Shown here: positions 1,586 through 50,550 of the stretch, piece by piece
Numbering within the stretch: position 1 is the stretch's first letter
Layout: every line of letters starts with the position of its first letter
From: a virus
DNA length: 64,000 nt
Direction: 5' to 3' (one strand)
Virus record (IMG/VR): IMGVR_UViG_3300025319_000005
Coordinates: 1 to 64,000 of that record
Translations under genes and position numbers: made by a program
The notes under the pieces: generated by a model
What the model was told of the DNA's origin: nothing
What the model saw: the letters and a program-made list of their open reading frames with translations, nothing else
Databases searched by the model: none

Positions 1586-1864
1586 CTAATTTTTTTCATT
1601 AAATTTATCAGTATTTTTTAAAAGGCTTATACTTTCATAGCTAAATTTTTCAGGTGAGCTCTTTTCAATTAAAACGCTACGAGTTAAAACATCTACACCT
1701 AATCTTTTTCTGTAATTGCATATTTTATAACCCATCTCACATTGTTCTTCTGTGTAATCATAAAACAATCCAAAAATATTATAAACATCATTTTTAAAAA
1801 CCGAATTATTTCCACAAATAGGACATTCTTTACCAGTGGATGATATTTTTTGTAAAGTTATCAT
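1586..1864 (-). CDS. zinc-knuckle protein with R-x-V-L-x-E-K motif
   Basis: 92 aa. An N-terminal CPIC and two later cysteines may bind zinc. LTRSVLIEK follows near residue 60 and is one of the shared window-wide peptides. The gene precedes a run of four paralogs that carry the same peptide near their N-termini. No family recognised. Confidence 0.7.
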   Translation of the reverse strand: MITLQKISSTGKECPICGNNSVFKNDVYNIFGLFYDYTEEQCEMGYKICNYRKRLGVDVLTRSVLIEKSSPEKFSYESISLLKNTDKFNEKN

Positions 1865-1873
1865 TTTTTACAA

Positions 1874-2179
1874 TTAAACGGATTTTTTATTTATTTGTTT
1901 GCAGTGCTTTTTTAGAATTACATAATTTTTGTGTTTGACTTCATCCACAACTGTATAAAAATCTGAAAACTTATAATATAAAAGCCAACTATATTCTGCA
2001 AATTCTCCATTATAACACTCTCTTACATGAAATATTTTTCCTATAAAATTTGTATACCACCAAGAAACGACCACCTCAACATCATTTTCAAATCTAAAAT
2101 CAGCGATTTCTATTCTGATGGGATATTTTTCTATTAATACACTTCTTGTTAAAATGCTGTATGATAAAAATTTATTCAT
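1874..2179 (-). CDS. WWY-family paralog 1 with R-x-V-L-x-E-K motif
   Basis: First of four tandem paralogs. Shared layout: the peptide LTRSVLIEKYP near the N-terminus, a central WWY, then G-x-x-FHV, then a C-terminal V-I-L-K-K-H-C-K. Starting at MNKFLSYS gives a short stop/start overlap with the upstream paralog. Function unknown; the repeated duplication suggests a host-interaction or accessory role. Confidence 0.75.
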   Translation of the reverse strand: MNKFLSYSILTRSVLIEKYPIRIEIADFRFENDVEVVVSWWYTNFIGKIFHVRECYNGEFAEYSWLLYYKFSDFYTVVDEVKHKNYVILKKHCKQINKKSV

Positions 2180-2445
2180 ATCTTCTTTGTACAATGTCTT
2201 TTTAAAATTACAGCTCCTATTATATTTCTTCCATAAAATTCTTCCAGAAATATTTGTTCTCCAATAAATTTTTTAAAAATATAAAGTTCATTATCATTCT
2301 GATAATCAGCAACCTGAAAAACCTCTCCAACAAATTCAGAATACCAATATAAGTTTAATAAATGAAAATCATCATGCGGTAATATTCTTACCTTTATAAA
2401 AGCTTTTTCAGTTAAAACTTCTCTTGTTGCTATATTGTTTTTCAT
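2176..2445 (-). CDS. WWY-family paralog 2 with R-x-V-L-x-E-K motif
   Basis: Same architecture as its neighbours: TREVLTEKAF near the N-terminus, YWY in place of WWY, G-x-x-FQV, and C-terminal VILKRHC. The start MKNNIATREV overlaps the preceding stop by four bases, the spacing used throughout this block. Function unknown. Confidence 0.75.
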   Translation of the reverse strand: MKNNIATREVLTEKAFIKVRILPHDDFHLLNLYWYSEFVGEVFQVADYQNDNELYIFKKFIGEQIFLEEFYGRNIIGAVILKRHCTKKI

Positions 2446-2738
2446 ACTGGTTTTTTGCAATGTTTCTTTAAAATATAGTCTCCTTCATTTTTTCCTTTTG
2501 TTGATACTGTATAAAAGTTGTTATAATTTGTTTTTGCAATCCATTCTTTATTAAAACTTGCAAAATCTTCTTTTGTACAATTATTCACATGAAAAATCAT
2601 TCCATTAAATTTTTCTTTAACATACCACCAAGTTCTAAATGGATGCTCAATATCTTCTCTGTTTGGTAAATATATTCTAATCCTAATTGGATATTTTTCA
2701 ACTAATACCTCTCGAGACGCTACATCTTCGTTTTTCAT
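2442..2738 (-). CDS. WWY-family paralog 3 with R-x-V-L-x-E-K motif
   Basis: Paralog with SREVLVEKYPIRI at the N-terminus, TWWY, IFHV and YILKKHCK. MKNEDVASREV is chosen as start because it overlaps the upstream stop by only four bases. Function unknown. Confidence 0.75.
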   Translation of the reverse strand: MKNEDVASREVLVEKYPIRIRIYLPNREDIEHPFRTWWYVKEKFNGMIFHVNNCTKEDFASFNKEWIAKTNYNNFYTVSTKGKNEGDYILKKHCKKPV

Positions 2739-3007
2739 ACCGGTTTTTTGCAATGTTTTTTTAAAATGATACTACCTTCTTCGGCTCCTCCTGAAACTTT
2801 ATAAAAATCTAAAGTGTTCCTACCTGTCCATGCTACACGTTTTGTGTCACTCAATTCTGTGACATGAAAACTTTCACCAATGCGTAGTTGATACCACCAA
2901 GATATATTGGCATCTGCATCACTTTCTAAAGAATAGTCAGACACGGTTATTCTTTTAGGGAATTTTTCAAACAACACTTCTCTATTTAAGGAGGGAGAAT
3001 TATCCAT
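2735..3007 (-). CDS. WWY-family paralog 4, first gene of the block
   Basis: 90 aa with NREVLFEKFP, SWWY, SFHV and ILKKHCK. It is the promoter-proximal copy: two palindromes at 3046-3075 lie directly upstream and may control this gene and the three paralogs behind it. Confidence 0.75.
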   Translation of the reverse strand: MDNSPSLNREVLFEKFPKRITVSDYSLESDADANISWWYQLRIGESFHVTELSDTKRVAWTGRNTLDFYKVSGGAEEGSIILKKHCKKPV

Positions 3008-3084: not shown

Positions 3085-3825
3085 TCACAATTCATTAAGT
3101 TCTCTGTTTAAATTATTCTCTTTATTCATTTCTCCCCACATTCCTTTGTTATACATTGAAACGTATGTTTTGAATATATCCAATTCTTCTCTATGACTCA
3201 TTGAAAGTAATTTGCCAGCAGTTGTATATGAAAGTGCTTTAAATTTTGGATTTAATTCTTCTAAAAAAGTCCCATCTTCTAATTTATTCTGACTAAAATA
3301 TCCAGGAAATTTAAAAACAGGGAAAGACTCCATACAAAGACCATTCCTGTCTAATAAATCATAATTTAAACATGATTTAATAAATTCGTGCTTTGCACTT
3401 GCGGGTATTGCCAATAGCATAGAAAAAGAAAATTGATTACCGGAAACAAAAAGTTGATTATAATGACTTTTATTAATAAGTGGATTAATGTTGTAGACGT
3501 TATGAAAAATTTCTGATGATTCATTTAATATTATTTGAAGAATAATTATTCTTGCTATTATAATATTTGAAGACTTTTTTCTAAATATAATAGAAGATAG
3601 CTTTTTGCTTTCTTGATAAACTAAAACTATATTTTTATTTTCTTTAAAAGAAGTGCCAATGTATTTCTTTTCCTCTTTTGATAATGGTATTACCTCAGTT
3701 GATAAAAATTTTGTACGAGTTATAAAACCCATAATTAAATCCAGTCTTCTATTTGATTTTTCGACAAGAACAACTCTTGAAGAAGTATAATCATTATTTT
3801 TTATATGTGAGCTGGGCTTTTTCAT
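3085..3825 (-). CDS. 246-aa protein with N-terminal R-x-V-L-x-E-K motif
   Basis: Starts with a short Lys/Ser-rich segment, then SSRVVLVEKSNRR near residues 15-27, then about 210 residues of a mixed domain I do not recognise. A hydrophobic helix (IIIARIIILQIIL) sits near residue 90. If the peptide marks a cleavable N-terminal targeting sequence, this would be the long cargo of the set. Confidence 0.7.
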   Translation of the reverse strand: MKKPSSHIKNNDYTSSRVVLVEKSNRRLDLIMGFITRTKFLSTEVIPLSKEEKKYIGTSFKENKNIVLVYQESKKLSSIIFRKKSSNIIIARIIILQIILNESSEIFHNVYNINPLINKSHYNQLFVSGNQFSFSMLLAIPASAKHEFIKSCLNYDLLDRNGLCMESFPVFKFPGYFSQNKLEDGTFLEELNPKFKALSYTTAGKLLSMSHREELDIFKTYVSMYNKGMWGEMNKENNLNRELNEL

Positions 3826-3844: not shown

Positions 3845-4264
3845 TTATGATTTGAAGTTGTATTTTAAATCTGTAGCATCAATTAATTTAAAAAATTTTT
3901 CATCAAAAGTTGAACGTCCAAAATATAATTTTTTTTTAGTTGTAAATTCTTTTAACTTTTCAATGTGCTTTATTCCATTTAAAAATTTGATCACTTCCGT
4001 ACGCTTCATTTTAAACTTTCTTTCAAAGCCAATCCATATTAAATCATCAAACCAAAATATATCACCATAGTCTAAATTTGGCTCTCTAATTTCATATTGA
4101 AACAGAATCTTACCAGCCTTAACATAAAAATAAAAGTTTGGATATTCTTCACATGTATTAATTTCACATCCTTCCAAAAACGAAAGAAAAAACACTTCCA
4201 TATCATTTTTTAGTGAGAATTTTTCAGTTAGTACTTTCCGAGTTATGGACAATTTTACTTTCAT
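3845..4264 (-). CDS. family E paralog without array (FFLSF family)
   Basis: 139 aa. Shares the N-terminal layout of the array-linked family: V-x-L-S-I-TRKVLTEKF, then EVFFLSFLEGCEI, then FYVKAGKILFQ and a W/F-rich centre. Its C-terminal tail no longer shows the 22-residue repeat pattern and no 36-bp repeats follow it, so it is either an ancestral form or one that has lost its array. Confidence 0.75.
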   Translation of the reverse strand: MKVKLSITRKVLTEKFSLKNDMEVFFLSFLEGCEINTCEEYPNFYFYVKAGKILFQYEIREPNLDYGDIFWFDDLIWIGFERKFKMKRTEVIKFLNGIKHIEKLKEFTTKKKLYFGRSTFDEKFFKLIDATDLKYNFKS

Positions 4265-5923: not shown

Positions 5924-6901
5924 ATGAAAAAAATAAGACAAATAATAAGAAAGTTTCTTTTTGAAGCACATGGAATTCAAATTAGCGTTCACGAATTTTC
6001 AAAAGAGATAGCAACTGATATGTTAGGTGTTATAGAAGATAATTTTATAAGAATGAATAATGGAAGAGAATGGAAATTTGAAGTAGATTTTCAGTCTCCA
6101 GAAACCATAAAAAAAGACACAAAAATAAATATAGTTAAAATTGGATTTACTTTTATTTCTTCTGAGGTGTTTAAGGTGAGTGGAAGTTTTGATCCAAATA
6201 GAACAGTGCTTTTAACTGATGATAATTATAATGTTTTTATAAAATTAGAAATAGAAACAAATACAATAGAAAACGTTTTACAACAAATAGAATCAGTTGT
6301 TTCGCATGAACTTAATCATGCATTTGTTCATATAAAAGGACTGTCAGGTAAATTAAAAGCAAAAAACTTAAATTACTCAAATAAATTCACACGAGGAGAA
6401 TTAAAAACCTTAATAGATAAAACTCCAGCACTTAAGGAATTTACAAAAATGATTTATATGGCAAATCCTTATGAAGTGCAATCAAGAGTGCAACAATCAG
6501 CGTTAGAACTTAAATATATAGACAAAAAAGAAGCAAAAGATACTATAGATGCACTACTTCAGTACGCACCATTAAGAGATGCTAAAATGATGATTTCTTA
6601 TAATTTGGATGAAATAAATAAAGTTGATGGCCAGATATTAGAAAATTTCGTTAAAAAGTTTAATGACAACATTAAGTCAGCTTCAAAAGAAGAAAATCCA
6701 AAAACAATTTATAAAGTAGATAAGTTTTTTGATTATTGGAAAGATGTAATAAATAATGCCGGCGATAAACTTGCAAGGAAAATATATAAAATTGTCGCAG
6801 ATAAACATCAAATACACGAGGGTTGTGTTTATGAATTAACGGATGGAGGAGCTTATAACATAATATTCGGAGAATCATACGGATATAATAGCCATGGCTA
6901 A
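5924..6901 (+). CDS. zinc metalloprotease-like protein (HExxH)
   Basis: 325 aa, one of only two clear plus-strand genes. VVSHELNHAFVH near residue 126 is a full HExxH zinc-binding signature, so a zincin-type peptidase is likely, though the third zinc ligand is not obvious. The N-terminus reads KKIRQIIRKFLFEAHG. This basic helix ending in L-F-E-A resembles phage capsid-targeting or prohead-cleavage peptides and, loosely, the window-wide R-x-V-L-x-E-K peptide. It is divergent from the operon at 5799 and convergent with the sigma gene, sharing a hairpin terminator with it. Confidence 0.75.
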   Translation: MKKIRQIIRKFLFEAHGIQISVHEFSKEIATDMLGVIEDNFIRMNNGREWKFEVDFQSPETIKKDTKINIVKIGFTFISSEVFKVSGSFDPNRTVLLTDDNYNVFIKLEIETNTIENVLQQIESVVSHELNHAFVHIKGLSGKLKAKNLNYSNKFTRGELKTLIDKTPALKEFTKMIYMANPYEVQSRVQQSALELKYIDKKEAKDTIDALLQYAPLRDAKMMISYNLDEINKVDGQILENFVKKFNDNIKSASKEENPKTIYKVDKFFDYWKDVINNAGDKLARKIYKIVADKHQIHEGCVYELTDGGAYNIIFGESYGYNSHG

Positions 6902-6959: not shown

Positions 6960-8066
6960 TTAAGACAACACAGATTCAAATACATTCCTATTAGCTTTGA
7001 TAATGGATTTAAGCTCTGATTTTCCACGATGTATTGTTGCTTTTATTGTTCCCAAAGGAATATTAAGCTCTTCTGCGATTTCGTTATAGGATTTCTCTTC
7101 AACAAAACGTTTATTCATAATAATACGGCAATTTTCTCCCAGTTTATTTACCGCCTTATTTATTAAAGATTTTTTTTGCTCTGTAATTAATATTTCTTCT
7201 GGATTAAGTGTTCCATCATCTTTCACATCAAATGAAGAATATTCATCCCCTTCGTTTCTCATTTTCTCAGAAGAAACTCCAGCACTCAAAGAAATTGTTT
7301 CCAATCTTTTTTTACGTGTGTAATCAATTAAAAAATTAGAAGCAATACGGCTTATCCAGCTATTAAACGTAAACGTCGGTTTGTACTGGTGAAGTTTTTC
7401 GAACACTCTAACGAATAACTCTGCAGTTAGGTCATCTGCCAAATCTTTATCAAATTTTAAACTTGAAGTATATTTATAATTTATTATAGCATAATAACGT
7501 TTATATAAAACAGAAAATTTTTCTTTTTTTCCAGATAAAATTTCATTTACAGCGTTAATATCTTCTTGATCTATTTTAGAAAAAACTTTTGTAGCAACAG
7601 AATTTTCTTTCGTTGCGACTTCTTTAATTATTTGTTCAACTTCTGTTACGGTTAAAACTTCCTCTGGTTTAGTTAAAACTTCTTTAAGAACCGGTTTAAC
7701 TTCTTTTTCAGGAGTAACAGTGCTGGATTTTGCAGGTTTAACCAATTTATTGATTTTATAATTTTTTTCTTTAGAAGAAGCAAATGTAACTTCAATCAAT
7801 TTATTTAATGAATTAATTCCTGACTTTAAACAATAACCCAAAAAAACTATGTTTTCTCCACTTAAATTTAAAATATCAACTATTCCAATTCTATCATTCG
7901 ATATTTTTTTAGCACCTGATTTTGATGGGTATGACCAATCTTTCCCTTTTCGCATAGCTTTGGTAAGTGGAAATACTCTTACGTTTAACTTATCATTTTT
8001 TACTTTCCCCATTAAAGAATATAATGGAGCCAATTTGATTGCTGAAATTTTTCCTGTGTTTTTCAT
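6960..8066 (-). CDS. ECF-like sigma factor with N-terminal extension
   Basis: 368 aa. The C-terminal half is an ECF-type sigma-70: region 2 near residues 185-255 (DLTAELFVRVFEKL, then FNSWISRIASNFLIDYTRKKR) and region 4 with its helix-turn-helix near 325-355 (YNEIAEELNIPLGTIKATIHRGKSEL). The first roughly 110 residues are a separate domain also found alone in the gene at 8672; between them is a Lys/Glu/Val-rich linker. It should direct host RNA polymerase to phage promoters. The conserved promoter here has an AAC-type -35 box (TGTAACA) as ECF factors prefer, and one copy (8627) heads this operon, so positive autoregulation is likely. Confidence 0.85.
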   Translation of the reverse strand: MKNTGKISAIKLAPLYSLMGKVKNDKLNVRVFPLTKAMRKGKDWSYPSKSGAKKISNDRIGIVDILNLSGENIVFLGYCLKSGINSLNKLIEVTFASSKEKNYKINKLVKPAKSSTVTPEKEVKPVLKEVLTKPEEVLTVTEVEQIIKEVATKENSVATKVFSKIDQEDINAVNEILSGKKEKFSVLYKRYYAIINYKYTSSLKFDKDLADDLTAELFVRVFEKLHQYKPTFTFNSWISRIASNFLIDYTRKKRLETISLSAGVSSEKMRNEGDEYSSFDVKDDGTLNPEEILITEQKKSLINKAVNKLGENCRIIMNKRFVEEKSYNEIAEELNIPLGTIKATIHRGKSELKSIIKANRNVFESVLS

Positions 8067-8100
8067 TTTTTCCGTTTTTTAAAGGTTTGTTTGCTCTTAT

Positions 8101-8607
8101 TTATAGTTCTTCTTCAAGTATTTGTTTATTATCTAAATCAGCCAAAGCCATTGCAATATTGAATTCTCCAATCAAAACCGCTTTTGCAAAATTTCCATGA
8201 TTTTTATCCCATTCTTGAGAAATTGTGCTTTCCTTATTAATAATACGTTTACACATATCTGCTATTACTAAGTTTTTAGAAAGCTGAAGCCTTTCTATCA
8301 TTTCCATGGCTGTTAACCAAATTGTTTTTGTTTTCACGTTATCTTTTTTTAAATTAAATGTTAATCTGGGTTTTATTTCTTTAATTTCTTTTTTTCCAAA
8401 TTCAAAATCAAAATAGTCTAAATCGTTAACATCATAAGAGTATTCATTATCTGCATCTAATTTTTCTTCAAGACGAACATCATTATCCTTTTTGATAACT
8501 GTTCTACGAATGCGAGAAGTTGATTTTTTCATATCTTTTTTCACATGAGTAGCCCATTCTCCATTGAGTGCTGAATTTAACTTATTTCCCGGTCTAACTT
8601 TTCCCAT
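8101..8607 (-). CDS. hypothetical protein co-transcribed with sigma
   Basis: 168 aa, charged. The N-terminal third is basic (KKDMKKSTSRIRRTVIKK), the middle acidic, and the C-terminal part helical. First gene after the promoter at 8627, immediately upstream of the sigma gene, so it could modulate sigma activity; that is inferred from position only. Confidence 0.7.
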   Translation of the reverse strand: MGKVRPGNKLNSALNGEWATHVKKDMKKSTSRIRRTVIKKDNDVRLEEKLDADNEYSYDVNDLDYFDFEFGKKEIKEIKPRLTFNLKKDNVKTKTIWLTAMEMIERLQLSKNLVIADMCKRIINKESTISQEWDKNHGNFAKAVLIGEFNIAMALADLDNKQILEEEL

Positions 8608-8626
8608 TACTTTGTGTTTATTTGTT

Positions 8627-8666
8627 TTATAATGTACTATACAAAATTTAAATGACAGGTGTTACA
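8627..8666 (-). promoter_or_regulatory. conserved phage promoter (sigma operon)
   Basis: Full match to the 40-bp element. Drives 8607-6960, including the sigma factor itself. Confidence 0.85.
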
Positions 8667-9058: not shown

Positions 9059-9447
9059 TTTAGATTGTTTTGAAGTTTACAATTTATAATTTCTCTTGTT
9101 TCTACATTTTTTTGAACAATTTGTATATGAATTCTTGCGTTATCCTTTCCATTCCATTTAACCTTCAAACCATTTCTTTCAAGTACATCAACAATTTCTT
9201 TACCTTTACCAGACCAAGATAGATAACATCCTTGACTTTCTTTTAAAGAATCTAAATCTTGATTATGATAAAAAATCACTTTATCATATTGTACATCTGG
9301 GACATCTGACCACCCACAAGAATTACAACAAGTATGATTCTCTTTAGCAAAATAACCCAAAGCTCTTAATTCATTAAAAGCATTTTTAATTGGAGCCCGG
9401 AATGAAAATTCTTTTTTTTCTGATTTAACTTTACCTTTTTTAATGAT
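9055..9447 (-). CDS. DUF6891-like protein, start codon unclear
   Basis: The reading frame encodes FRAPIKNAFNELRALGYFAKEN, then CCNSCGW, then FYHNQDLD and YLSWSGKG, a pattern I associate with the DUF6891 family (Cys-rich, GYFA, SCGW, YHxQD). No in-frame ATG exists. A TTG at 9360 would cut off conserved residues, while an ATT or ATC near 9444-9447, just after the promoter at 9461, would keep them. Unusual initiation, a small indel or an assembly error are all possible. Overlaps the next gene by four bases. Confidence 0.65.
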   Translation of the reverse strand: MIKKGKVKSEKKEFSFRAPIKNAFNELRALGYFAKENHTCCNSCGWSDVPDVQYDKVIFYHNQDLDSLKESQGCYLSWSGKGKEIVDVLERNGLKVKWNGKDNARIHIQIVQKNVETREIINCKLQNNLK

Positions 9448-9518: not shown

Positions 9519-10001
9519 TTATGCTATTGATAATTTGCCATTCATTGTTTTTACTATTTGTTCCAACGGAGATTCTATTTTTTGAATTATAGTATTATTA
9601 ATTAAACTTTGAGATTTTATGTAATCATTCTTTTTATTTTGATAATATATTTTTTGCTTATTATTTAAAATTAATCTTTTTTCTTTAATTTTTTCTCTTT
9701 GTTGTTTTAATACTAATCCACAAACTCCTTTGTATAATAAATTTAATCCACTATTTAAACAATCAAATAATTTTATGTAATATGATTCAGCATCATCCAA
9801 TTTTTCTTTTTCGCAAATATGTATTATTTCAAAAATGTGGTTCTCGTATTTATATTTTTTTAAAGAGTTATATAGTTGCCTTTGACCTTTACAATTATAT
9901 AACTTATAAGCATTCCATCTTTTTTCTATATTTATAGATTTACCTATATAAATTTTTCCGTTTGGTGATGTTATTTTATAGATTCCACAAGTTTGTTTCA
10001 T
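9519..10001 (-). CDS. GIY-YIG endonuclease
   Basis: 160 aa. N-terminal GIY-YIG domain: CGIYKITSPNGKIYIGKS at residues 5-22, then R at 28 and an E near 71 that fit the catalytic pattern. The C-terminal half is Lys/Asn-rich, as in homing endonuclease DNA-binding tails. The start overlaps the stop of the integrase gene by four bases, so the two are probably translated together. A selfish homing role or a part in mobility of the adjacent cassette region is plausible. Confidence 0.85.
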   Translation of the reverse strand: MKQTCGIYKITSPNGKIYIGKSINIEKRWNAYKLYNCKGQRQLYNSLKKYKYENHIFEIIHICEKEKLDDAESYYIKLFDCLNSGLNLLYKGVCGLVLKQQREKIKEKRLILNNKQKIYYQNKKNDYIKSQSLINNTIIQKIESPLEQIVKTMNGKLSIA

Positions 10002-10855
10002 AAATGAATATTACTAATAGGAGACGCAATTTTACTTATTAAATTATGTGAAATATGAGTGTAAATTGAAGTTGTTTTTACAGAAGAATGACCTAACAAT
10101 TTTTGAATAAGATTTATATCGACACCATTTTCAACCATATGAGTAGCTGATGTGTGTCTCATTAAGTGAGTATAAACTCTTTTGTTATCTATCCCGGCTT
10201 TCTTTGCCAATTGTTTAATTACATTACCAACGCTGTGTTCGGAATATTGTTCAGCATTATTTTGTCCAGTTAAAACATAAACAAACTGGTCTTTTTTTAT
10301 ATTGTACTCTTTGCAATAGTCTTTTAATATTATAATCAATTGTTCATTTAATCCAACTTGACGGTCTTTATTTCCCTTTGCTTGAATTACATTTATAATC
10401 ATTCGGCTCCGGTCAATGTGTTCCCATTTTAAATTTAATAATTCTGAAACCCGGAGGGAACAAGAATAAAGTAGGGCAAGAATCACTTTATGCTTTTTGT
10501 TTTCGCAGGCGTCAAACATTCGTTGGATTTCATTTACAGATAAAACAATCGGCAGTTTTTTGTTTTTCCTTGGACGTTCTATGTATTTGAATTTTTCAAT
10601 TCCGACCCTTGCAATTTTTTCATAATAAATTTTAATAGCTGAATGGTATCCTGAATGTGTTGATGGTTCCTTAAACTGACCAAGAAACTCAATTATCATT
10701 GTGGTATTAATTCTGTCTGGGTGCGTTACCCCTTTCTTTTCAAAATAAGCAAGAAATCCAGTGAAGTTGCTACAATAGTTAGAAACTGAATTTGGCGAGT
10801 AATTTCGGAACTCCATATAATTTCGGAGCTTCTGTACTGGGTCTGAAATTTCCAT
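9998..10855 (-). CDS. tyrosine recombinase / integrase (XerD-like)
   Basis: 285 aa. N-terminal SAM-like core-binding domain (residues 5-85) and a C-terminal catalytic domain with the expected residues: R in CSLRVSELLNLKW, K in the beta-hairpin (AKGNKDRQV), HLMRHTSATHM, LGHSSVKTTSIYTH with the nucleophilic Tyr. Length and motifs are those of a simple XerC/D-type recombinase; the extra helix typical of integron integrases is not evident. It abuts a stretch of gene cassettes separated by attC-like palindromes (11-13.9 kb), which makes it the obvious candidate for moving them. Confidence 0.9.
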   Translation of the reverse strand: MEISDPVQKLRNYMEFRNYSPNSVSNYCSNFTGFLAYFEKKGVTHPDRINTTMIIEFLGQFKEPSTHSGYHSAIKIYYEKIARVGIEKFKYIERPRKNKKLPIVLSVNEIQRMFDACENKKHKVILALLYSCSLRVSELLNLKWEHIDRSRMIINVIQAKGNKDRQVGLNEQLIIILKDYCKEYNIKKDQFVYVLTGQNNAEQYSEHSVGNVIKQLAKKAGIDNKRVYTHLMRHTSATHMVENGVDINLIQKLLGHSSVKTTSIYTHISHNLISKIASPISNIHL

Positions 10856-10964
10856 GTCTAAATGTATTGATTTTATTAATACTTCAATAAGTGTGCCACA
10901 TATATAATGTTATGTTCAATTGTTTGTTGTTTAATTTTAAAAGCCACCGCACTCCTTTGTTTTT
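10856..10964. other. non-coding junction with inverted-repeat end
   Basis: Separates the methyltransferase stop from the integrase start. It holds one arm of the 26-bp inverted repeat (10917-10942) preceded by GTTATGTT, the same bases found at the border of the attC-like site at 12138 in the opposite orientation. Confidence 0.5.
10917..10942 (+). repeat. 26-bp inverted repeat, left arm
   Basis: CA(A/G)TTGTTTGTTGTTTAA continuing TTTTAAAA, present here on the plus strand and at 12088-12113 on the minus strand with a single mismatch. The two arms bracket the methyltransferase cassette. Confidence 0.7.
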
Positions 10965-29780: not shown

Positions 29781-29788
29781 TATATTTC

Positions 29789-30127: not shown

Positions 30128-30134
30128 AATCCAA

Positions 30135-31605: not shown

Positions 31606-31624
31606 ATATTTTTAATAAAAATGT

Positions 31625-32798: not shown

Positions 32799-32800
32799 TT

Positions 32801-34062: not shown

Positions 34063-34457
34063 TTTTCTATAAGGACTTTACGTGTATTTTGAATTTTGTA
34101 CCAGGCTTTCTCATTTGGATAAATTGGAACCCATTCTAATATTTCTCCTTTAAATCTCAAATTCAATTCTCTTTCAGCTACACCCATAAGAAATAAAAAC
34201 TTATTTGTCAATTCTAATAATACAGGTTCATCAATTTCATCATCCCAACGAATAAACTCATAGTGCTTCTTACTAGTTTCAAATATGTACCGGTGATACC
34301 AATAAATATTTGACCAATGTTGTTGTGTTACCTGAGAAAATGGAATTTTAACCCCATCTTTAGTTGTCCAAACTTCCTCAAATACTCCAGCCTCAGTTTC
34401 TTCTAAAAACGGCTTATATTCGAATATCGTCTTTAAATTGTTTTCAACTTTTTCCAT
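34044..34457 (-). CDS. R-x-V-L-x-E-K protein N6, 137 aa
   Basis: Trp/Tyr-rich body (WSNIYWYHRYIFETSKKHYEFIRW) ending IQNTRKVLIEKWKSQK. First gene after the variant promoter at 34472. Unknown domain. Confidence 0.7.
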   Translation of the reverse strand: MEKVENNLKTIFEYKPFLEETEAGVFEEVWTTKDGVKIPFSQVTQQHWSNIYWYHRYIFETSKKHYEFIRWDDEIDEPVLLELTNKFLFLMGVAERELNLRFKGEILEWVPIYPNEKAWYKIQNTRKVLIEKWKSQK

Positions 34458-34471: not shown

Positions 34472-34509
34472 TTATATCACTATACGAGAAATAATTGATA
34501 CGTGTTACA
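34472..34509 (-). promoter_or_regulatory. diverged copy of the conserved promoter
   Basis: TGTAACACGTATCAATTATT then CTCGTATAGTGATATAA; two bases shorter in the -10 block. The only copy between 28.7 and 48.9 kb. Confidence 0.6.
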
Positions 34510-34705
34510 ACTTTATTGGTATTCGACACAATTTTAGCAATTTTTGACTCAAATATGTTTTTTCTATTAAAACCCTCCTAATGTATATTATATCTGGCAC
34601 AGTCATCATTGCCCGACCGTACTTAATAATATCAAATGCCTCTTCTTCGCTTATTCTAAAACGAGCCAGCATCTCTTTTATCTCAAAATCATATAGATAC
34701 CTCAT
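34505..34705 (-). CDS. R-x-V-L-x-E-K protein N7
   Basis: 66 aa; helical, MARFRISEEEAFDIIKYG-like body with YIRRVLIEKTYLSQKLL near the C-terminus. Its 3' end overlaps the variant promoter. Confidence 0.6.
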   Translation of the reverse strand: MRYLYDFEIKEMLARFRISEEEAFDIIKYGRAMMTVPDIIYIRRVLIEKTYLSQKLLKLCRIPIKL

Positions 34706-35210
34706 TTTTCTTTGAAAGTTCTTTAAATGATGTTGTAGCTAAATTTAAGCTAGAAGGATGATATTCACCTAAACTTTTAAATTCTATTATTTCTTTAGCA
34801 AGTATAAATGAACCTCTTACCGGCATACAATCATTTTTTATTTCATTTTCCAATATCATCCAATCTTTAGAATTCTTAATAGAACCCATTGAATATGGTG
34901 AATAACCATTAAGTTTTATACTGTTCTTTAGTAAACCTTTTATAAGTATTTGTGTTTTAGCATAGCTAAACCCAAATTTCATTTTAAAAACTGACCATAT
35001 GATGTCATATCTGACATAAAAAAACTTATATTTAATTTGTTGATGAAATAAAATCATATCTTCTTTTACATAAAAATAAAGCTCCGGATATTCTTTACTC
35101 GTTTTAATTTCACATCCTTCGATAAAAGACAGAAAAAACTCTTTTGCACCTTCTGTAGAAGAATATTTCTCGGTTAGGACTTTTCTCGTTATGACTAATT
35201 CTATTTTCAT
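34689..35210 (-). CDS. family E paralog with decayed repeats
   Basis: 173 aa. VITRKVLTEKYSSTEGAKEFFLSFIEGCEI, FYVKEDMILFHQQ, VRYDIIWSVFKM. The tail keeps a faint 22-residue rhythm (SIKLNGYSP, EIKNDCMP, FKSLGEYHP), what an array would look like after long drift in frame. Downstream neighbour of array 3. Confidence 0.75.
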   Translation of the reverse strand: MKIELVITRKVLTEKYSSTEGAKEFFLSFIEGCEIKTSKEYPELYFYVKEDMILFHQQIKYKFFYVRYDIIWSVFKMKFGFSYAKTQILIKGLLKNSIKLNGYSPYSMGSIKNSKDWMILENEIKNDCMPVRGSFILAKEIIEFKSLGEYHPSSLNLATTSFKELSKKNEVSI

Positions 35211-35767
35211 TTATCAAATAAGTTTATAGTGCTCCATAAATCACCAAGTATTACTGGTGTATAACCCTCCAATTTCACATGTGTTTCCAACAAAGATTTA
35301 GGACTAGGAAATACTTCTTTAGGTGTATAACCCTCCAATTTCACATGTGTTTCCAACCAAGCCCAGGATTGTATTGCACCACCAACAGGTGTATAACCCT
35401 CCAATTTCACATGTGTTTCCAACTTTTTTTGCAGAATATTAATTCTCCCAACAGGTGTATAACCCTCCAATTTCACATGTGTTTCCAACCTATCCTTTAT
35501 AAAAGATTGAATATCACTATAGTTAAGTTTATATTTGTTCTCAAAAACTGACCAAATTAAGTCAAATCTCATATAAAAATACTTAATTTTTGTTTCCTGT
35601 TCAAACAAAATCAAGTCATTTTTTACATAAAAAATAAAATTCGGGTATTTTTTACTTAATCTTATTTCACATCCATCAATAAAAGAAAGAAAAAAATCTT
35701 CCATTTCGTGTTCAATGTTAAATTTCTCAAAAATAACTTTTCTGGTTGGAATTAATTCTATATTCAT
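35207..35767 (-). CDS. family E gene fused to array 3
   Basis: 186 aa. IELIPTRKVIFEKFNIEHEMEDFFLSFIDGCEIRL, FYVKNDLILFEQ, MRFDLIWSVFENKY, FIKDR, then four perfect LETHVKLEGYTP units separated by 10-residue variable pieces, ending 15 residues after the last. All spacers are 30 nt, so the array stays open in this frame. The peptide after each repeat is different; whether the tail is made and used as protein is unknown. Confidence 0.75.
   Translation of the reverse strand: MNIELIPTRKVIFEKFNIEHEMEDFFLSFIDGCEIRLSKKYPNFIFYVKNDLILFEQETKIKYFYMRFDLIWSVFENKYKLNYSDIQSFIKDRLETHVKLEGYTPVGRINILQKKLETHVKLEGYTPVGGAIQSWAWLETHVKLEGYTPKEVFPSPKSLLETHVKLEGYTPVILGDLWSTINLFDK
35256..35489 (-). CRISPR. CRISPR-like array 3: four identical 36-bp repeats, three 30-nt spacers
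   Basis: Repeats at 35256-35291, 35322-35357, 35388-35423 and 35454-35489 are base-for-base identical; spacers are exactly 30 nt and unrelated. Minus-strand repeat: begins GTTGGAAACACATGTG, ends TTGGAGGGTTATACACC. The 36+30 geometry, GTTGGAA start, central GGAGGG and A/C-rich end are those of type VI-B (Cas13b) direct repeats in Flavobacteriia and relatives; in that type the array is read in this orientation. No cas gene is in the window. A further spacer-length stretch follows the last repeat. Confidence 0.85.
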
Positions 35768-35803
35768 TTTTATAATACTTAAACGAAAAATCCTGTTATT
35801 TGT

Positions 35804-36019
35804 TCATATTTTGTCTCCTGTTTTCTGTCCAGATTCGTCATTTATTTTATTAAAAACAAGCAACTGGCCATTTATATTAAACCCAAATTCAGAAAAATGA
35901 CAATCATTGCATTGATAAATCTCATGTATTGTTCCTTGGTTTATACATAAACCATTATCTTTCGGTGTAATTTCATAATCACATTGAAAACATATTTTAT
36001 GCCCGGTTTTGTCTTTCAA
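35804..36019 (-). CDS. small zinc-ribbon protein
   Basis: 71 aa with CFQC and CNDC about 30 residues apart, a classic four-Cys ribbon; last 12 residues repeat the theme KTGHK/KTGDK. Lacks the R-x-V-L-x-E-K peptide although surrounded by carriers. Confidence 0.65.
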   Translation of the reverse strand: MKDKTGHKICFQCDYEITPKDNGLCINQGTIHEIYQCNDCHFSEFGFNINGQLLVFNKINDESGQKTGDKI

Positions 36020-36444
36020 TGTTTTATTTTTACCAAATTTAATATTCTCCTATTATTATTTAATGTTCTCCTATTATTCCATGTTCTACATACAAATTCT
36101 CTAAACTCAATATAATTATCCAATTCCTCATAAGAAATATAAAATTCTGATACATCATAAAATATGATTTTTCTCATAGGAATAAATGTTGTCGGGTGAT
36201 AAAGATTTTCACCTATAACATAATTCGTGTTGTTTCCCATCATTGGAGATAGAACTTTACTGGCTATGTAATTAATGCCGTTTATATTTTCTGTTCCCCA
36301 AATACAAGACTTTTGATTTATAACAAACATCTCTTTATAAGCCTTTTTCCATAACTCATAAGAAATAAGCATCAAAAGACCATGCTCTGAAAAATTAGAA
36401 AAGGATAAATACTTTTCAGTTAAAACCCGGCGTGTTAATTTCAT
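36016..36444 (-). CDS. family S paralog 1 with N-terminal motif
   Basis: 142 aa: KLTRRVLTEKYLSFSNF at the N-terminus, then ELWKKAYKEMF and ASKVLSPMMG, shared in outline with four downstream-numbered paralogs. Low-complexity NNRR repeats near the C-terminus. Function unknown. Confidence 0.7.
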   Translation of the reverse strand: MKLTRRVLTEKYLSFSNFSEHGLLMLISYELWKKAYKEMFVINQKSCIWGTENINGINYIASKVLSPMMGNNTNYVIGENLYHPTTFIPMRKIIFYDVSEFYISYEELDNYIEFREFVCRTWNNRRTLNNNRRILNLVKIKH

Positions 36445-36866
36445 TAAAGTATTCGTAAATAATTAACTAATCCAAGTGTATGCAAATAATCAATTACAAG
36501 TGTTCTTAAATTAACACCATTCTTTAAAAAAGAAGAAATATCTTCAGTGTAACAATAAGTTGTAATGTGATAAAATGGATTCAGCTCACCCATATTTTTA
36601 TTTTTTAAAGTTAAAGTTATTATCCTGTTTTCCATGCTATCACCAATTCTATTTAATTCGCTTATGTGATATAAATCAATTTTTTGTCCAGTAACAGGAC
36701 AAATAATTTTTGAAACAATGAATACAATCCGTTCTAAATTATTTTTATTCTCAATTCTTTTAAACGTAATATCCCATAATTTATCCGGAACATCTTCTAT
36801 GTTCGTATATCTCCAAAATGGCGAGGATTTCTCTATCAGGACTTTACGAGTTAAAGTATTGCTCAT
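36444..36866 (-). CDS. family S paralog 2
   Basis: 140 aa from MSNTLTRKVLIEKSSPFWRY; VPDKLW, VSKIICPVTG. A longer frame from 36917 would overlap the neighbour. Shares SSPFWRY directly after the peptide with two other copies. Confidence 0.7.
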   Translation of the reverse strand: MSNTLTRKVLIEKSSPFWRYTNIEDVPDKLWDITFKRIENKNNLERIVFIVSKIICPVTGQKIDLYHISELNRIGDSMENRIITLTLKNKNMGELNPFYHITTYCYTEDISSFLKNGVNLRTLVIDYLHTLGLVNYLRIL

Positions 36867-36879
36867 CTTGTATTTTCCA

Positions 36880-37284
36880 TTAAGATGTTTTGTGCTTGTT
36901 CCTCCAGAATATGTCAATAATATCTCTTAAAAATTCACCAGTTGAAAAATCAGATACCATTGTGTTTAACGTTGAAAATGGCATGTTAAAATAATAGTGG
37001 TTGAAAATTATCTTTCTTTTGCTATCAGAAAGTGATAAATATAACATTTCTACTTCTGAAATTGTAAAATCCTTTTCATGCATTAGTGGCGATAAAATTT
37101 CATAAGCCAGGTATTCTATTATTTTATCCGCTCTTTGAGATTCTACTACAGTATCCGATATTTTAAGCATAGAATCTCTAACCTTATTCCAGATATGCTC
37201 CGGAACCTCAAGTGGGAAATTGTATTTCCAAAAAGGTGAGGATTTTTCTGTCAAAACTCGACGTGTTAAACTTTGATGTTCCAT
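36880..37284 (-). CDS. family S paralog 3
   Basis: 134 aa: SLTRRVLTEKSSPFWKYNFP, VPEHIWNKV, YLAYEILSPLMHEKDFTIS. The conserved I-L/I-x-P-L/M-x element after a helix is typical of this family. Confidence 0.7.
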   Translation of the reverse strand: MEHQSLTRRVLTEKSSPFWKYNFPLEVPEHIWNKVRDSMLKISDTVVESQRADKIIEYLAYEILSPLMHEKDFTISEVEMLYLSLSDSKRKIIFNHYYFNMPFSTLNTMVSDFSTGEFLRDIIDIFWRNKHKTS

Positions 37285-37307: not shown

Positions 37308-37541
37308 TTAGCTCAACATTACATTACTACATTCTATACATAATCCCATGTCAGGATTATTAGGATAGTCTTTTTCATATCCTATTTTCGTAAACGTCTT
37401 TTCTCCACAACAATCACAAGAAGTTAAACATTCACTCACAAACATACTACCTGAAATCCTAATATGATAACCTTTCTTTTTTAATGTACCTATAGAGCTG
37501 CCTTTTTCTATTAAAACATGACGTGTTAATGTGTTGTTCAT
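37308..37541 (-). CDS. family D zinc protein 1
   Basis: 77 aa: NTLTRHVLIEKGSSIG, LKKKGY, then CDCC, KIGYE, DMGLCIEC. Two CxxC knuckles around K-I-G-Y-E; paralogous to 38399. Confidence 0.7.
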   Translation of the reverse strand: MNNTLTRHVLIEKGSSIGTLKKKGYHIRISGSMFVSECLTSCDCCGEKTFTKIGYEKDYPNNPDMGLCIECSNVMLS

Positions 37542-37960
37542 GTTATTTCTCTCCTTAAAAATTTTGAACTACATTTCATTGAATATTCCCACAGTATCTC
37601 AATAGTTTCTTTTAACATAAAAGAACTCTGATAGTGACGCTTATTACATAACAAATTCATAGACACTTCAAAATAACAATCGTTGTCGAAAATTATATCC
37701 CTATAAGAATAAGCGAAATTGTTATTTACGAATTTTATAGGTGAAATAGTAAAATCCTCTTTTATGAGCGGTGATAGAATTTGACCGGCAATGTAGTGTA
37801 TTAATTTATCAGCTATTTTTGTTTCACCCGTATCATTAAACATGTCTTGAATTATATTAAAATGCTTCAGCCACAATTTCTCTGGAACCAAACTTGGATT
37901 CGGATATCTCCAAAAATGTGAGGATTTCTCTATCAGGACTTTACGAGTTAAAGTGTTCAT
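37538..37960 (-). CDS. family S paralog 4
   Basis: 140 aa from MNTLTRKVLIEKSSHFWRYPNP; VPEKLWLKHF, AGQILSPLIKEDFTIS. Four-base overlap with the zinc gene that follows. Confidence 0.7.
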   Translation of the reverse strand: MNTLTRKVLIEKSSHFWRYPNPSLVPEKLWLKHFNIIQDMFNDTGETKIADKLIHYIAGQILSPLIKEDFTISPIKFVNNNFAYSYRDIIFDNDCYFEVSMNLLCNKRHYQSSFMLKETIEILWEYSMKCSSKFLRREIT

Positions 37961-37961
37961 G

Positions 37962-38399
37962 TTATTTTCCATTTAAAATATATTCTATATTATACTTTAA
38001 TCCAATGTAACTATATATATCTGATAAGTCTACTAATGTTTCACGCTCAACTTTTAACGACTTTATTTTTCTATTGATTCCAGCAAACTCTATTAAATGA
38101 TGTGCCGGACGAATCATAGTTGTGGGTCGTATATTTGGATGTTTTGTTGTTGTTATTGCATAAGGAACATAAGTTATATTGTAATTTCTCATTTTTAGCA
38201 TAGGAGATATGATTTTTTCTATAACGAATTCCAATACTATGATACCATTATTTAAATTTCCTTTACTGGCTAAAATTTCAAAATTAAGTTCTTCTGCGAC
38301 TTTTATCCACATAATCCAAGGCACGTCATCCACATTTGAATAACGCTCGAAAAGTGAGGATTTCTCTGTAAGGACTTTCCTGGTTAAAATATTATTCAT
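37962..38399 (-). CDS. family S paralog 5
   Basis: 145 aa: NNILTRKVLTEKSSLFERYSNVDDVP, ASKGN, VIEKIISPMLKMRNYNI. Most diverged copy of the five. Confidence 0.7.
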   Translation of the reverse strand: MNNILTRKVLTEKSSLFERYSNVDDVPWIMWIKVAEELNFEILASKGNLNNGIIVLEFVIEKIISPMLKMRNYNITYVPYAITTTKHPNIRPTTMIRPAHHLIEFAGINRKIKSLKVERETLVDLSDIYSYIGLKYNIEYILNGK

Positions 38400-38656
38400 C
38401 ATAAAGATAAAAATTTATCAAATCCCATACTACATCTTTCACATAATCCAATATCGGTAATTCCAAAAAAAAATGACTCATAACCAATTTTTACTTGTGT
38501 TCTTCTTTTGCAGAAATCACAAAATTCCAACTCAGCTCTTGAAAAAATTTTTGTACCAAAAGGATGTATTTTTTGAAAATAACCTCTATTCTTTAATTCA
38601 CCTACAAAAGAATAAGATTTTTCAATTAAGACTTGACGTGTTAAGGTGTTGCTCAT
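38399..38656 (-). CDS. family D zinc protein 2
   Basis: 85 aa from MSNTLTRQVLIEKSYSFVGELKNRGY; CDFC, KIGYE, LCERC. Start chosen where the family consensus begins; the longer frame from 38716 has an unrelated hydrophobic extension. Outermost gene of the S/D cluster. Confidence 0.7.
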   Translation of the reverse strand: MSNTLTRQVLIEKSYSFVGELKNRGYFQKIHPFGTKIFSRAELEFCDFCKRRTQVKIGYESFFFGITDIGLCERCSMGFDKFLSL

Positions 38657-38872
38657 TTTTATGTTTCTATGCGTGTTTTTTAAATGCAAAGGTAGAAAAA
38701 TTATTGCACAAAACATCGAAAATAACCCAGCAAATTTATATGAAATATATCCGGTTTTTTGGGAGCGCTGGAGTAACAGGAGAGTGGTAGGATTTTATAT
38801 TAAATAAAAATTAAACCCAAGTTGATGTTGTGGAAAATGTTATATAGTTAAAATGATATAAAACTACATTTA
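38657..38872. other. non-coding stretch upstream of family S/D cluster
   Basis: About 215 bp without a supported gene. It should hold the promoter of the S/D cluster but no copy of the conserved phage promoter. One GGTAGGATTTTATA copy of the window-wide repeat lies near 38787. Confidence 0.5.
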
Positions 38873-44029: not shown

Positions 44030-44581
44030 TTATTTGATTTGTAAAAAATTTGTGAGCACTGGATGGTCAAGGTTTGGTTTTACCAATTTTAGATGTGCGT
44101 TAGATAAACGACCCATTCTCCATTTACCAGCACCAGGTGTATAGTCCTTAAGTTTTATATTTGTTTCCGATATGTTTACACCATTACCAGAAGATGTATT
44201 TGGCGTGTATCCATTCAAATTTATAAGTGTTTCCAACGTTTGTGCCGCATTGGCGATTGGAATTATTGGTGTATATTCATCCAATCTTATATGTGTTTCT
44301 AATACGTCTTTTATAAACGACTGAGTTTTAGAATAACTAAATTTATATTTGTCCTCAAAAACCGACCAAATTAGATCGAATCTCACATAAAAATACCTGT
44401 TTTCTGTTTCCTGTTGAAATAATAATAAGTCATTTTTCACATAAAAAATATAATGTGGATGTTTGTCTGAAATTTTTAATTCACACCCCTCTATAAAAGA
44501 CAGGAAGAAATCCTCCATTTCGTGTTTGATGTGAAATTTCTCAAATAGGACTTTCCGAGTTATGGATAGGGTCGTTATCAT
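44030..44581 (-). CDS. family E gene fused to decayed array 4
   Basis: 183 aa. LSITRKVLFEKFHIKHEMEDFFLSFIEGCELKI, FYVKNDLLLFQQ, VRFDLIWSVFEDKY, FIKDV, then LETHIRLDEYTP, LETLINLNGYTP, SETNIKLKDYTP and a fourth, SNAHLKLVKPN. All in frame at 22-residue spacing, but the DNA repeats have diverged strongly. An isolated copy 9 kb from the other family members. Confidence 0.75.
   Translation of the reverse strand: MITTLSITRKVLFEKFHIKHEMEDFFLSFIEGCELKISDKHPHYIFYVKNDLLLFQQETENRYFYVRFDLIWSVFEDKYKFSYSKTQSFIKDVLETHIRLDEYTPIIPIANAAQTLETLINLNGYTPNTSSGNGVNISETNIKLKDYTPGAGKWRMGRLSNAHLKLVKPNLDHPVLTNFLQIK
44071..44303 (-). CRISPR. CRISPR-like array 4, degenerate
   Basis: Diverged repeats at 44136-44171, 44202-44237 and 44268-44303 with exactly 30-nt spacers, plus a very degenerate fourth at about 44071-44106. 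66-bp periodicity is strict. Substitutions fall so that E-T, K/N-L and Y-T-P survive in translation, the signature of a relic array retained as protein. Confidence 0.6.
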
Positions 44582-48924: not shown

Positions 48925-48953
48925 GAGAAATGGTTTTTGTTTAATTAATTATG

Positions 48954-48993
48954 TTATAACGTACTATACGAATTTTAAAAGAGAGGTGTTACA
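48954..48993 (-). promoter_or_regulatory. conserved phage promoter
   Basis: 40-bp element with GTATAGTACGTTATAA; drives the operon 48924-44852. Confidence 0.85.
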
Positions 48994-50139
48994 AATTTCA
49001 TTGGTCTTCGGCACAAGTTAATGATAAATCATAATATAAAACACAAATATATAAATTTCTGATTGGTTTTTACTGGATTTTACTATAGTATATTTTTACA
49101 CTTTTTTAAACATAAACAGAAGTATGATTTACTATCATTTTCCATGAGAGAAAAGTAGATACTTTTATTGAGCTTTTTAATACTAAAATTAAAGAGGATG
49201 AAATGGGATTTATGTAGGATTTTACGTGAATGTCTACTTTTTCTAAATTTGTAAGAGGTTGGTTGTCAGGATTTTACATATAATTATATAACTTTAATAA
49301 AAACACGTAAAATAATATTAAAACATTGATACTGGTTCGGTTCACATTGTGAGGTTGTAGCTCTGTCCATTTATCAACCAACGAAATTGAACTGATTTAT
49401 GGGATTTAATAGAAATACGATAAATCGTATAAGTAAAATCCTGACATACTTTTCACAAATCCTATCACACTCCACAACGTCCTATCTAAAGACATTTCAG
49501 AACATTTAAAAAAATTTTAAAAATATAAACGTTAAAAGTGGGTTTTTGTGGTAAAAAGTGGGAGCCATAATTTAGCAGGACAATAGTAGGATTTTACTTG
49601 AGCTGAAAGTGAATAAAAGCTCTGGTCGGTAAAATCCTAATTATCCTCGTGTAGTCGTTTGTTGTCGGATAGCACAGTACTTTCCTTTCGTACCATAGGA
49701 TTTTACCATTCTGGGAGAAATTATTTACTTGTAGTCGGATAAATTGTTGATAACTTTATTTTTATCAATATCGGTAGGATTTTACGAGTACAAAATTGTT
49801 GATAACTATTTCTATTAAACAAAATGCTGGTTATAAGACAAGTAAAATCCTGGCACGATTTTATCTGGCACGTAAATTGATATTAGTAAAATCCTGCTAC
49901 CAATTCCCAAAGTGAATCTTATTCGTTTTCTTGTGATAAGTGTTAATAACTTTGTTAATAGAATGCAACATTTTGTAGGATTTTACGTTTAACTGTATAT
50001 GAACGTGTTTCCATCGCGTTTGGTTTTGGCCTACTGAGTTTAAATTAAAGAGGTTCCTGGTTTTGTTTTGTTTGCTCCTTCACCGTGTCCGCTACTCTTA
50101 ATTTACTCAGTGGGCTTTTTTATTGTTATATTTGTGAAA
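48994..50139. other. long non-coding block, candidate replication origin
   Basis: Over 1.1 kb with no supported gene. Eleven copies of GTAGGATTTTAC or its reverse complement occur between 49075 and 49986 in both orientations. Two TTGTTGATAAC elements (49744, 49796) resemble DnaA boxes. AT-rich tracts lie between. Dense short repeats in a gene-free, AT-rich stretch fit an origin or a centromere/packaging-type site. Confidence 0.45.
49075..49986. repeat. GTAGGATTTTAC short repeat cluster (11 copies)
   Basis: Copies begin near 49075, 49214, 49267, 49433, 49586, 49629, 49696, 49774, 49842, 49886 and 49975. Core GGATTTTAC is exact; flanks prefer GTA before and GT/CC after. Orientation is mixed. 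More copies lie outside (44670, 50546, 54352, 54381, 58757, 60600, 61183, 61270, 61391). Confidence 0.75.
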
Positions 50140-50550
50140 ATGATAAAAAGTCTTGAATATATTAAAATTCACATATTAAAAGAAGGAGAAAAGCCTGTTT
50201 TATTATCTGAGTTAGAAAACAAGATAGTTGCTTGGGCATTACATCTCCCTGAAAAAATACAAATTTCTCATTGCAACTCTAAAGAAAATTCAAATCCAAT
50301 AAAATTCATTGGAGGGAGAGAATACCGTTCCCTTGGAGATACCTGCAGAATGTTTTGTAAAATGAGACTACAAAATAGAATGTTTGATTACTTTTTCTGG
50401 GATGGAATTGTAAAAGTAATACATAATGATTATGATTACTTTAGTGAAGAATACTATGCTTTTAAAAATAGTTTTTATTATTATATTGTCACAGGAAGTT
50501 ATAATCACCGGATGGTGTTAATAGAAAAATTCAATAGGGAGAAATGGTAG
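50140..50550 (+). CDS. plus-strand R-x-V-L-x-E-K protein beside repeat cluster
   Basis: 136 aa from MIKSLEYIKIHILKEGEKPV; an upstream frame from 50068 is an artefact of extension. Body GGREYRSLGDTCRMFCKMRL unknown; C-terminus YNHRMVLIEKFNREKW carries the shared peptide. It is the only plus-strand carrier and is flanked by GGATTTTAC repeats. Confidence 0.65.
   Translation: MIKSLEYIKIHILKEGEKPVLLSELENKIVAWALHLPEKIQISHCNSKENSNPIKFIGGREYRSLGDTCRMFCKMRLQNRMFDYFFWDGIVKVIHNDYDYFSEEYYAFKNSFYYYIVTGSYNHRMVLIEKFNREKW

Follow-up and report, generated by a model that had tools for sequence, protein, structure and literature searches.

The window analysed here comprises bases 1 to 64,000 of G000, the virus record IMGVR_UViG_3300025319_000005 (212,632 bases, 29.6 percent GC, itself a fragment), in which one short peptide recurs from one open reading frame (ORF) to the next. 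The pattern R.[VI][LI].E[KA], written for R-x-[VI]-[LI]-x-E-K, found 39 sites in 39 open frames, all with an EK ending; 38 lie on the minus strand and one, at 50509, on the plus strand. We refer to this peptide as the tag and to the ORFs that carry it as tagged; many of the tagged genes are short, tandem and overlapping. The tagged ORFs of the window are:

1586 to 1864, minus: tagged ORF, LTRSVLIEK mid/C-terminal
1874 to 2194, minus: tagged ORF, LTRSVLIEK close to N-terminus; member of a family of 4
2176 to 2460, minus: tagged ORF, ATREVLTEK close to N-terminus; same family of 4
2442 to 2753, minus: tagged ORF, ASREVLVEK close to N-terminus; same family of 4
2735 to 3007, minus: tagged ORF, LNREVLFEK close to N-terminus; same family of 4
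3085 to 3825, minus: tagged ORF, SSRVVLVEK close to N-terminus
3845 to 4264, minus: tagged ORF, W family, ITRKVLTEK at residue 9
25956 to 26297, minus: tagged ORF, LTRRVLVEK close to N-terminus; member of a family of 3
26290 to 26625, minus: tagged ORF, LTRRVLVEK close to N-terminus; same family of 3
26630 to 26944, minus: tagged ORF, LTRRVLIEK close to N-terminus; same family of 3
28662 to 29087, minus: tagged ORF, W family
29090 to 29440, minus: tagged ORF, C family, ETRRVLVEK mid-protein
29403 to 29810, minus: tagged ORF, C family
29789 to 30127, minus: tagged ORF, C family
30135 to 30485, minus: tagged ORF, C family
30491 to 30745, minus: tagged ORF, C family, motif 11 residues from C-terminus
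30755 to 31084, minus: tagged ORF, C family
31093 to 31605, minus: tagged ORF, W family
31774 to 32199, minus: tagged ORF, W family
32388 to 32819, minus: tagged ORF, W family, RKVIFEK
32801 to 33184, minus: tagged ORF, KRVVLIEK close to C-terminus
33153 to 33311, minus: tagged small ORF, NTRKVLIEK close to C-terminus
33333 to 33509, minus: tagged small ORF, NTRTVLIEK 3 residues from C-terminus
33537 to 33557, minus: motif site NTRKVLVEK within a 48-codon open frame, 3 residues before the stop
33683 to 33844, minus: tagged small ORF, NTRKVLIEK close to C-terminus
33841 to 34062, minus: tagged small ORF, NTRTVLIEK close to C-terminus
34044 to 34457, minus: tagged ORF, NTRKVLIEK 5 residues from C-terminus
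34505 to 34705, minus: tagged ORF, YIRRVLIEK close to C-terminus
34689 to 35210, minus: tagged ORF, W family
35207 to 35767, minus: tagged ORF, W family, LETHVKLEGYTP repeats at C-terminus
36016 to 36444, minus: tagged ORF, S family, LTRRVLTEK at residue 5
36444 to 36917, minus: tagged ORF, S family
36880 to 37284, minus: tagged ORF, S family
37308 to 37541, minus: tagged ORF, LTRHVLIEK close to N-terminus
37538 to 37972, minus: tagged ORF, S family
37962 to 38402, minus: tagged ORF, S family
38399 to 38716, minus: tagged ORF, LTRQVLIEK
44030 to 44581, minus: tagged ORF, W family; modelled with AlphaFold, predicted local confidence (pLDDT) below 50 for residues 1-14
50068 to 50550, plus: tagged ORF, HRMVLIEK 6 residues from C-terminus

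Across the whole record, the DNA pattern MGNNNNGTNYTNNNNGARAAR, designed for R-x-V-L-x-E-K, gave 56 matches, against none in the reversed control; one of the 56, at 11160, reads AGT (Ser) and is not a real motif. The record-wide ORF set (436 ORFs of at least 40 residues, 63,067 residues, picked by length with no trained gene finder and with spurious ORFs included) held 59 sites, compared with an average of 0.64, and never more than 4, over 200 shuffles. The 31 window sites of the form T-R-x-V-[LI]-x-E-K use all four Thr and all four Val codons, five Arg codons and six Leu codons. Since codons vary so freely, it is the protein sequence that is kept, and the eight-residue tag is under selection at the protein level.

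Relaxing the positions singly over the 146,666 residues of the tagged group of phages (described below) retained 123 of 133 matches for R, 123 of 128 for V, 123 of 126 for L/I, 123 of 125 for F/I/V/T, 123 of 123 for E and 123 of 124 for K, and the residue preceding R was T in 71 of 123 sites. The resulting consensus, [T]-R-x-V-[L/I]-[F/I/V/T]-E-K, is stricter than the form given in an earlier note on this DNA. Most sites (92 of 127) are close to a protein end: 43 lie within 25 residues of the N-terminus, 49 within 20 residues of the C-terminus, and 35 between. A small ORF found at 4025-4189 of L106 and at 3170-3334 of L111 carries SKTVLVEK, a rare variant in which K replaces the near-invariant R.

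These results confirm much of what the earlier note had claimed for the window: at least 39 proteins share the peptide, its placements are N-terminal, mid-protein or extreme C-terminal, and the codon spread upholds selection on the protein. Extending the motif search to the whole record and to related phages, which sit at background, bore the motif out as well. Its description of the proteins as otherwise unrelated was too strong, since 37 of the 39 fall into 17 families once the motif is masked (the largest with 8, 6, 4, 4 and 3 members; the other two sites sat in ORFs dropped by the gene picker and are outside this count). The core is also more than L-x-E, since R, V and the K after E are roughly as invariant as E itself.

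A search with the W family led to a second tagged contig, G001 (IMGVR_UViG_3300025319_000008), with 29 matches in 106 kb. Among the first 17 records tested, enrichment was found only in G001 and in G002, whose RNR is identical to that of G000. A codon-restricted motif scan of viral_contigs then gave 23 stretches, which led to 19 further records, among which G022, G027, G028, G034 and G036 contain three or more matches each; a second motif scan added G046 and G047. Reversed controls gave no match for G000, G001 and G028, and one for G022 against 21 real matches. With a looser pattern applied to 14 further records, 12 had 0-7 matches versus 0-11 in the reversed control, while the other two, G044 and G045, are members of the tagged group. 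Relatives outside the group were at background: 80 loci (934,273 bases), selected because they have a true Gp23-type capsid gene, contained 2 sites and a set of 78 loci (1,070,029 bases) contained 1, and the full motif had no match in 641,184 residues of relatives. Because these related phages sit at background, the tag is the mark of one group of large T4-like phages, not of T4-like phages at large. We found no published account of such a tag in the open-access PubMed Central literature.

The tagged group, represented by metagenomic fragments, comprises 125 tagged proteins on ten contigs (128 before near-duplicates of G018 were removed), forming 83 families with the motif masked, 65 of them singletons. 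G000 and G001 have few other detected genes in common, yet both use the tag heavily. Their best untagged match (1e-52) is a 106-residue protein at 184395-184715 of G000, which has a GNSMVP stretch and looks S24-peptidase-like by eye. The 125 proteins align with one another at the motif only, and PHROGs and Pfam name few of them: major head protein (4 of 125), terminase large subunit (TerL), head maturation protease, tail tube, tail fibre, an SNF2-type helicase and a LAGLIDADG endonuclease. By PHROGs and Pfam, about 9 of the 125 resemble virion proteins, a share taken on the tagged set alone. Among the defence-library matches listed, each of 25 families was matched by one member, mostly as a helicase. 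The tag is also separable from the proteins that bear it. It is missing from the aligned loop of a Paenibacillus phage protein homologous to the one at 110680 of G000, and in G034 the 627-residue helicase has it as a C-terminal tail that is missing from the G000 orthologue. The tag is kept while the protein bodies evolve fast. In some contigs, tagged genes adjoin those for TerL and portal.

For the W family, the genome collection yielded no homologue, one member searched in named phages gave none, and a fold search in PDB gave no match (best E 0.39). In the AlphaFold model of the member at 44030-44581, built from 11 sequences, the motif occupies residues 9-15, almost all of it inside the low-confidence N-terminal stretch, and the core has a pLDDT of about 80. 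This model, with the Paenibacillus and G034 comparisons, suggests that the tag may lie outside folded domains, as a docking motif would. The C-termini of this family (35207-35767; 31602-31742, 32196-32387) carry near-identical LETHVKLEGYTP units with variable stretches between them, and such units also occur in small stand-alone ORFs.

Judged by sequence, several tagged proteins are truncated relatives of the major capsid protein (MCP), portal, terminase, tail tube and prohead protease, a feature that is new here. The protein at 125505-126176 of G000 matches residues 43-167 of TerL and annotated TerLs of Vibrio and Aeromonas phages; it lacks the Walker B aspartate, the nuclease domain and all else past the ATPase part, and its C-terminal end is the tag variant RFVIVEK. 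The prohead-protease match at 8194-8658 of G028 has the tag in front and F-R-I-R in place of the active I-S-S-R, without both serines of the SSRG site, the catalytic one included. The capsid C-terminus is kept in G028 29859-30485, G036 7923-8273 and a third orthologue, where a tag-bearing segment stands in place of capsid residues of about 393-503; residues 347-393 are retained as well in the G028 copy. There are matches to annotated capsid proteins from Flavobacterium and Microcystis phages. At the other end of the capsid protein, residues of about 17-107 are kept in G000 171024-171842 and G027 9946-10896, with two tags each and, in the G027 protein, the MCP propeptide stretch in three copies; a pattern search of viral_contigs gave no relative of the G000 protein. 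In G036 1443-1766, the last 27 residues are portal-derived, 56 percent identical to the portal of the same phage, and the L195 orthologue at 9098-9409 keeps a similar portal-like end. The protein at G028 22035-22541 is weakly tail-tube-like (phrog_4542, 2e-4), and tblastn against named phages gave no match for it.

The tagged relatives of capsid, terminase and protease lack the complete, catalytic domains of working proteins, being truncated and having the SSRG serines and the Walker B aspartate replaced. The MCP- and portal-like genes, which recur in two or three phages, have ratios of non-synonymous to synonymous polymorphism (pN/pS) of 0.43-0.67, indicating weak constraint, compared with 0.05 for the real TerL and 0.09 for the real portal on the same contigs. 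A split capsid protein was considered and rejected, as the middle of the MCP is missing from the tagged pieces and G047 has an MCP that is intact. An AlphaFold model of the MCP-like piece from 5 sequences (pLDDT 34.6) gave no usable structure. An untagged 238-residue protein of G013 (205987-206703, L056) contains a short stretch of the capsid N-terminus (VVYPSIRRVKAQ...PTDMVFYSDY) amid foreign sequence, and capsid pieces in other proteins are therefore not confined to the tagged group. The real portal and TerL of G028 are 1505 and 968 residues long (L087 10945-15462 and 15516-18422), versus 618 and 561 in G036, and the G013 portal (182371-184971, L055) has an intein-like insert by eye; the extra length in G028 and the G013 insert are probably inteins.

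Intact head genes were recovered in G047 (3300032046_000094), whose MCP shares 48 percent identity with the G013 protein (E 9e-135) and which also has an ORF in the scaffold position and a protease keeping HP...SSRG. We sought the tag in all three proteins, and it was absent from each; instead, they contain ordinary (L/I)-x-E stretches, HMLNEV and LIKEA, in which the bonds between LNE and V and between IKE and A are likely cleaved. G047 has 4 tag-like matches in 37 kb (two of them TRxVLFEK) versus 0 in the control, comes from the same metagenome as G027 and has a tail-tube ORF resembling the one on the tagged contig L107, all of which points to, without proving, membership of the tagged group. 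If so, the tagged lineage probably has intact, untagged capsid, scaffold and protease genes as well, and the tagged relatives are probably not the real head proteins of the phage, although the intact genes were seen in G047 and not in the G000 fragment. An R-G-I-L-I-E stretch at the start of the relatives' proteases was rejected as an instance of the motif and taken as a conserved strand, because its R varies to K or F and D-A-G always follows. The Peptidase S77 model matched neither the G000 record nor any control and is hence uninformative.

Two other peptides are shared in these genomes. The earlier note had pointed to a related IRKFLFEAH at 5924 of the window; the peptide is present, but it belongs to a second class, separate from the tag, which we call class-1:

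5924 to 6901, plus: class-1 peptide MKKIRQIIRKFLFEAH, not the tag, on a 325-residue protein with a HELNH (HExxH) stretch

A Pfam search gave no match for this protein, whose peptide is possibly a T4-type head peptide. Class-1 peptides are N-terminal, read I-R-K-[IF]-L-x-E-[A/S/G] or near variants, and have the R/hydrophobic/L/E spacing of the tag; the others are at 171890, 172395, 180038 and 181419 of G000, 43009 and 44013 of G001, and 8932 of G027. Their bearers include LigT-like (weak) and GNAT-like proteins and ART-PolyVal, an ADP-ribosyltransferase of polyvalent type, which a class-1 peptide heads in G001 (PF18760, 5e-18). T4 itself packages an ADP-ribosyltransferase, Alt. In the tagged group, the other shared peptide, R[LM]xxL[AS]G[ILV], lies at one extreme end, N- or C-terminal, of 14 of 878 ORFs, including the C-terminus of the G047 scaffold (34722-36176) and sites at 101621, 128660, 129339, 141542, 141825, 147357, 193689, 196982 and 201915 of G000. 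None of the 1028 ORFs from relatives has it; their scaffolds have RM[KR][DE]LM at the end instead.

Several near-fixed residues on arbitrary bodies fit a peptide that is read by one partner. We tentatively favour, at a little less than an even chance, a short linear sorting tag of this kind, most likely one that directs its bearers to the head in the manner of the T4 capsid-targeting sequence and is tolerated at both termini. Such a tag would bring whatever body carries it into the prohead core, to be delivered to the next cell, and because it would package any body, the bodies could range from helicase and homing endonuclease to dead capsid, protease, portal and terminase pieces. V at -3 and L at -2 relative to E would stand in place of F7 and I8, which we take to be the letters of the T4 peptide, and a cut might follow E, ahead of the invariant K. 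We infer both destination and cleavage; the head is favoured as the destination because of the T4 precedent, the class-1 peptides with their like spacing (one of them on ART-PolyVal), and the tagged genes that neighbour or derive from head genes. The capsid-targeting sequence of the T4 proteins IPI-III and Alt is likewise one short peptide with a hydrophobic-(L/I)-x-E core on unrelated, fast-evolving small proteins, as described in parts of a review (PMC9026906), according to which residues 4 and 7 of the 10-residue signal target, residues 8 and 10 serve processing, and foreign proteins fused to the signal get packaged. The earlier proposal that the tag marks proteins for capsid packaging or protease processing thus survives in part: a common tag, on a large and fast-evolving repertoire of one phage group, with an E-anchored core like that of T4-type head peptides.

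Several observations weigh against a head-targeting signal. T4 signals are N-terminal and limited to a handful of proteins, whereas the tag is found at both termini and at inner positions, with about 59 sites in a partial genome and more sites near the C-terminus than near the N-terminus. While V-[L/I]-x-E is fixed, as expected of a hydrophobic residue followed by an (L/I)-x-E core, the tag is not confined to an N-terminal propeptide of 10-19 residues; because of this placement, we do not file it as a capsid-targeting member, although it may work like one. Its R and K are much stricter than a T4-type site and are not explained by T4 rules. The probable intact MCP, scaffold and protease lack it, which is not decisive, as the T4 signal belongs to internal proteins. 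Finally, the class-1 peptides already look like canonical head signals, and R-M-x-x-L-A-G-I, shared by the scaffold C-terminus and the termini of 13 other proteins, may be the true core-binding tag and a better candidate.

The tag could be nothing other than a plain cleavage site of the T4-type prohead protease, for which (L/I)-x-E suffices. Its L-x-E core and the (L/I)-x-E stretches in the MCP and protease of relatives speak for this, as does the C-terminal cut that T4 gp21 makes in Alt according to parts of two sources (PMC9026906, PMC5694885). However, parts of the review give the T4-type cleavage site very few determinants (PMC9026906), whereas the tag has a near-invariant R at -5 (123 of 133) and K at +1 (123 of 124), and the relatives without a single full motif in 641,184 residues include many that keep the same protease family. 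Since the intact, untagged head genes have ordinary (L/I)-x-E sites, the tag is not simply a prohead-protease site; we consider this reading, which the earlier note had also raised, decidedly improbable. A chance or compositional origin, to which an AT-rich genome with many K and E codons might lend itself, is virtually nil, being excluded by the counts (59 versus 0.64 expected), the near-empty reversed controls and the background level in relatives.

Other readings keep a single partner but place it elsewhere. The tag may dock interfering or decoy proteins to a single hub of phage or host that is not the head, such as a protease or a defence sensor pathway. Truncated capsid, portal, terminase, protease and tail-tube copies would then fool the bacterial sensors that recognise these same proteins, or act as dominant negatives on co-infecting kin. 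The existence of such tagged copies, the loss of the SSRG serines from the protease-like piece and of the Walker B aspartate and nuclease domain from the TerL-like piece, and the recurrence of the MCP- and portal-like pieces under a far weaker constraint than the real genes are consistent with this, and bacterial systems recognise phage structural components, as parts of three sources describe (PMC11364771, PMC11087589, PMC12847820). Nonetheless, only about 9 of 125 tagged proteins are virion-like, most bodies being of unknown kind, and no reader or hub was found among the tagged genomes compared, so that we regard this docking as the main rival, though less likely than not. A Clp ATPase of G001 was considered as a reader and rejected: no copy was found in G000, and G013 and LR756508, both unenriched in the tag, have one. 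The fuller version, a tagged-decoy system in which own or related structural and packaging genes would be truncated, catalytically stripped and tagged to form a library of harmless mimics of the protein kinds that bacterial sensors recognise, namely capsid, portal, terminase and tail tube, all sent to one fate, seems to us quite doubtful. Purely regulatory docking to a hub such as the polymerase, ribosome or clamp, apart from head and decoys, would suit the short, tandem, overlapping ORFs, which resemble early gene arrays, and the heavy use of the tag by both G000 and G001 despite their few other common genes; it leaves the tagged pieces of head and packaging proteins unexplained and appears improbable.

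The tag can also be compared with systems beyond T4. The malaria-parasite export motif RxLxE (PEXEL) is an R...L-x-E peptide common to unrelated effectors; it differs from the tag in spacing, organism and machinery and serves as an analogy only. DarB of P1 and ART-PolyVal proteins, which are delivered with the phage DNA, resemble the class-1-headed ART-PolyVal of G001 and the tagged SNF2-type helicase of G034. Known polyvalent and antirestriction proteins are multidomain in the parts of the source used here (PMC5512222), whereas the tagged ones mostly have 50-250 residues. The inner-body and ejection propeptides of phiKZ and SPN3US likewise belong to large head-interior sets, some of them cut after glutamate, and SPN3US has a diverged protease paralogue, gp117; the cut site of these propeptides is A-X-E or S/A/G-X-E, and the portions of the source consulted describe no common eight-residue tag (PMC5694885).

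We did not expect capsid, protease, portal and terminase to occur as tagged, catalytically dead copies, and these point towards interference with assembly or host sensing. If the favoured reading is true, the tag would be a new packaging or recruitment tag, perhaps usable at either terminus. One peptide would then be enough to list, from sequence alone, every protein that a phage group delivers or recruits, and the question of which proteins a large phage sends ahead of its DNA would become directly testable.

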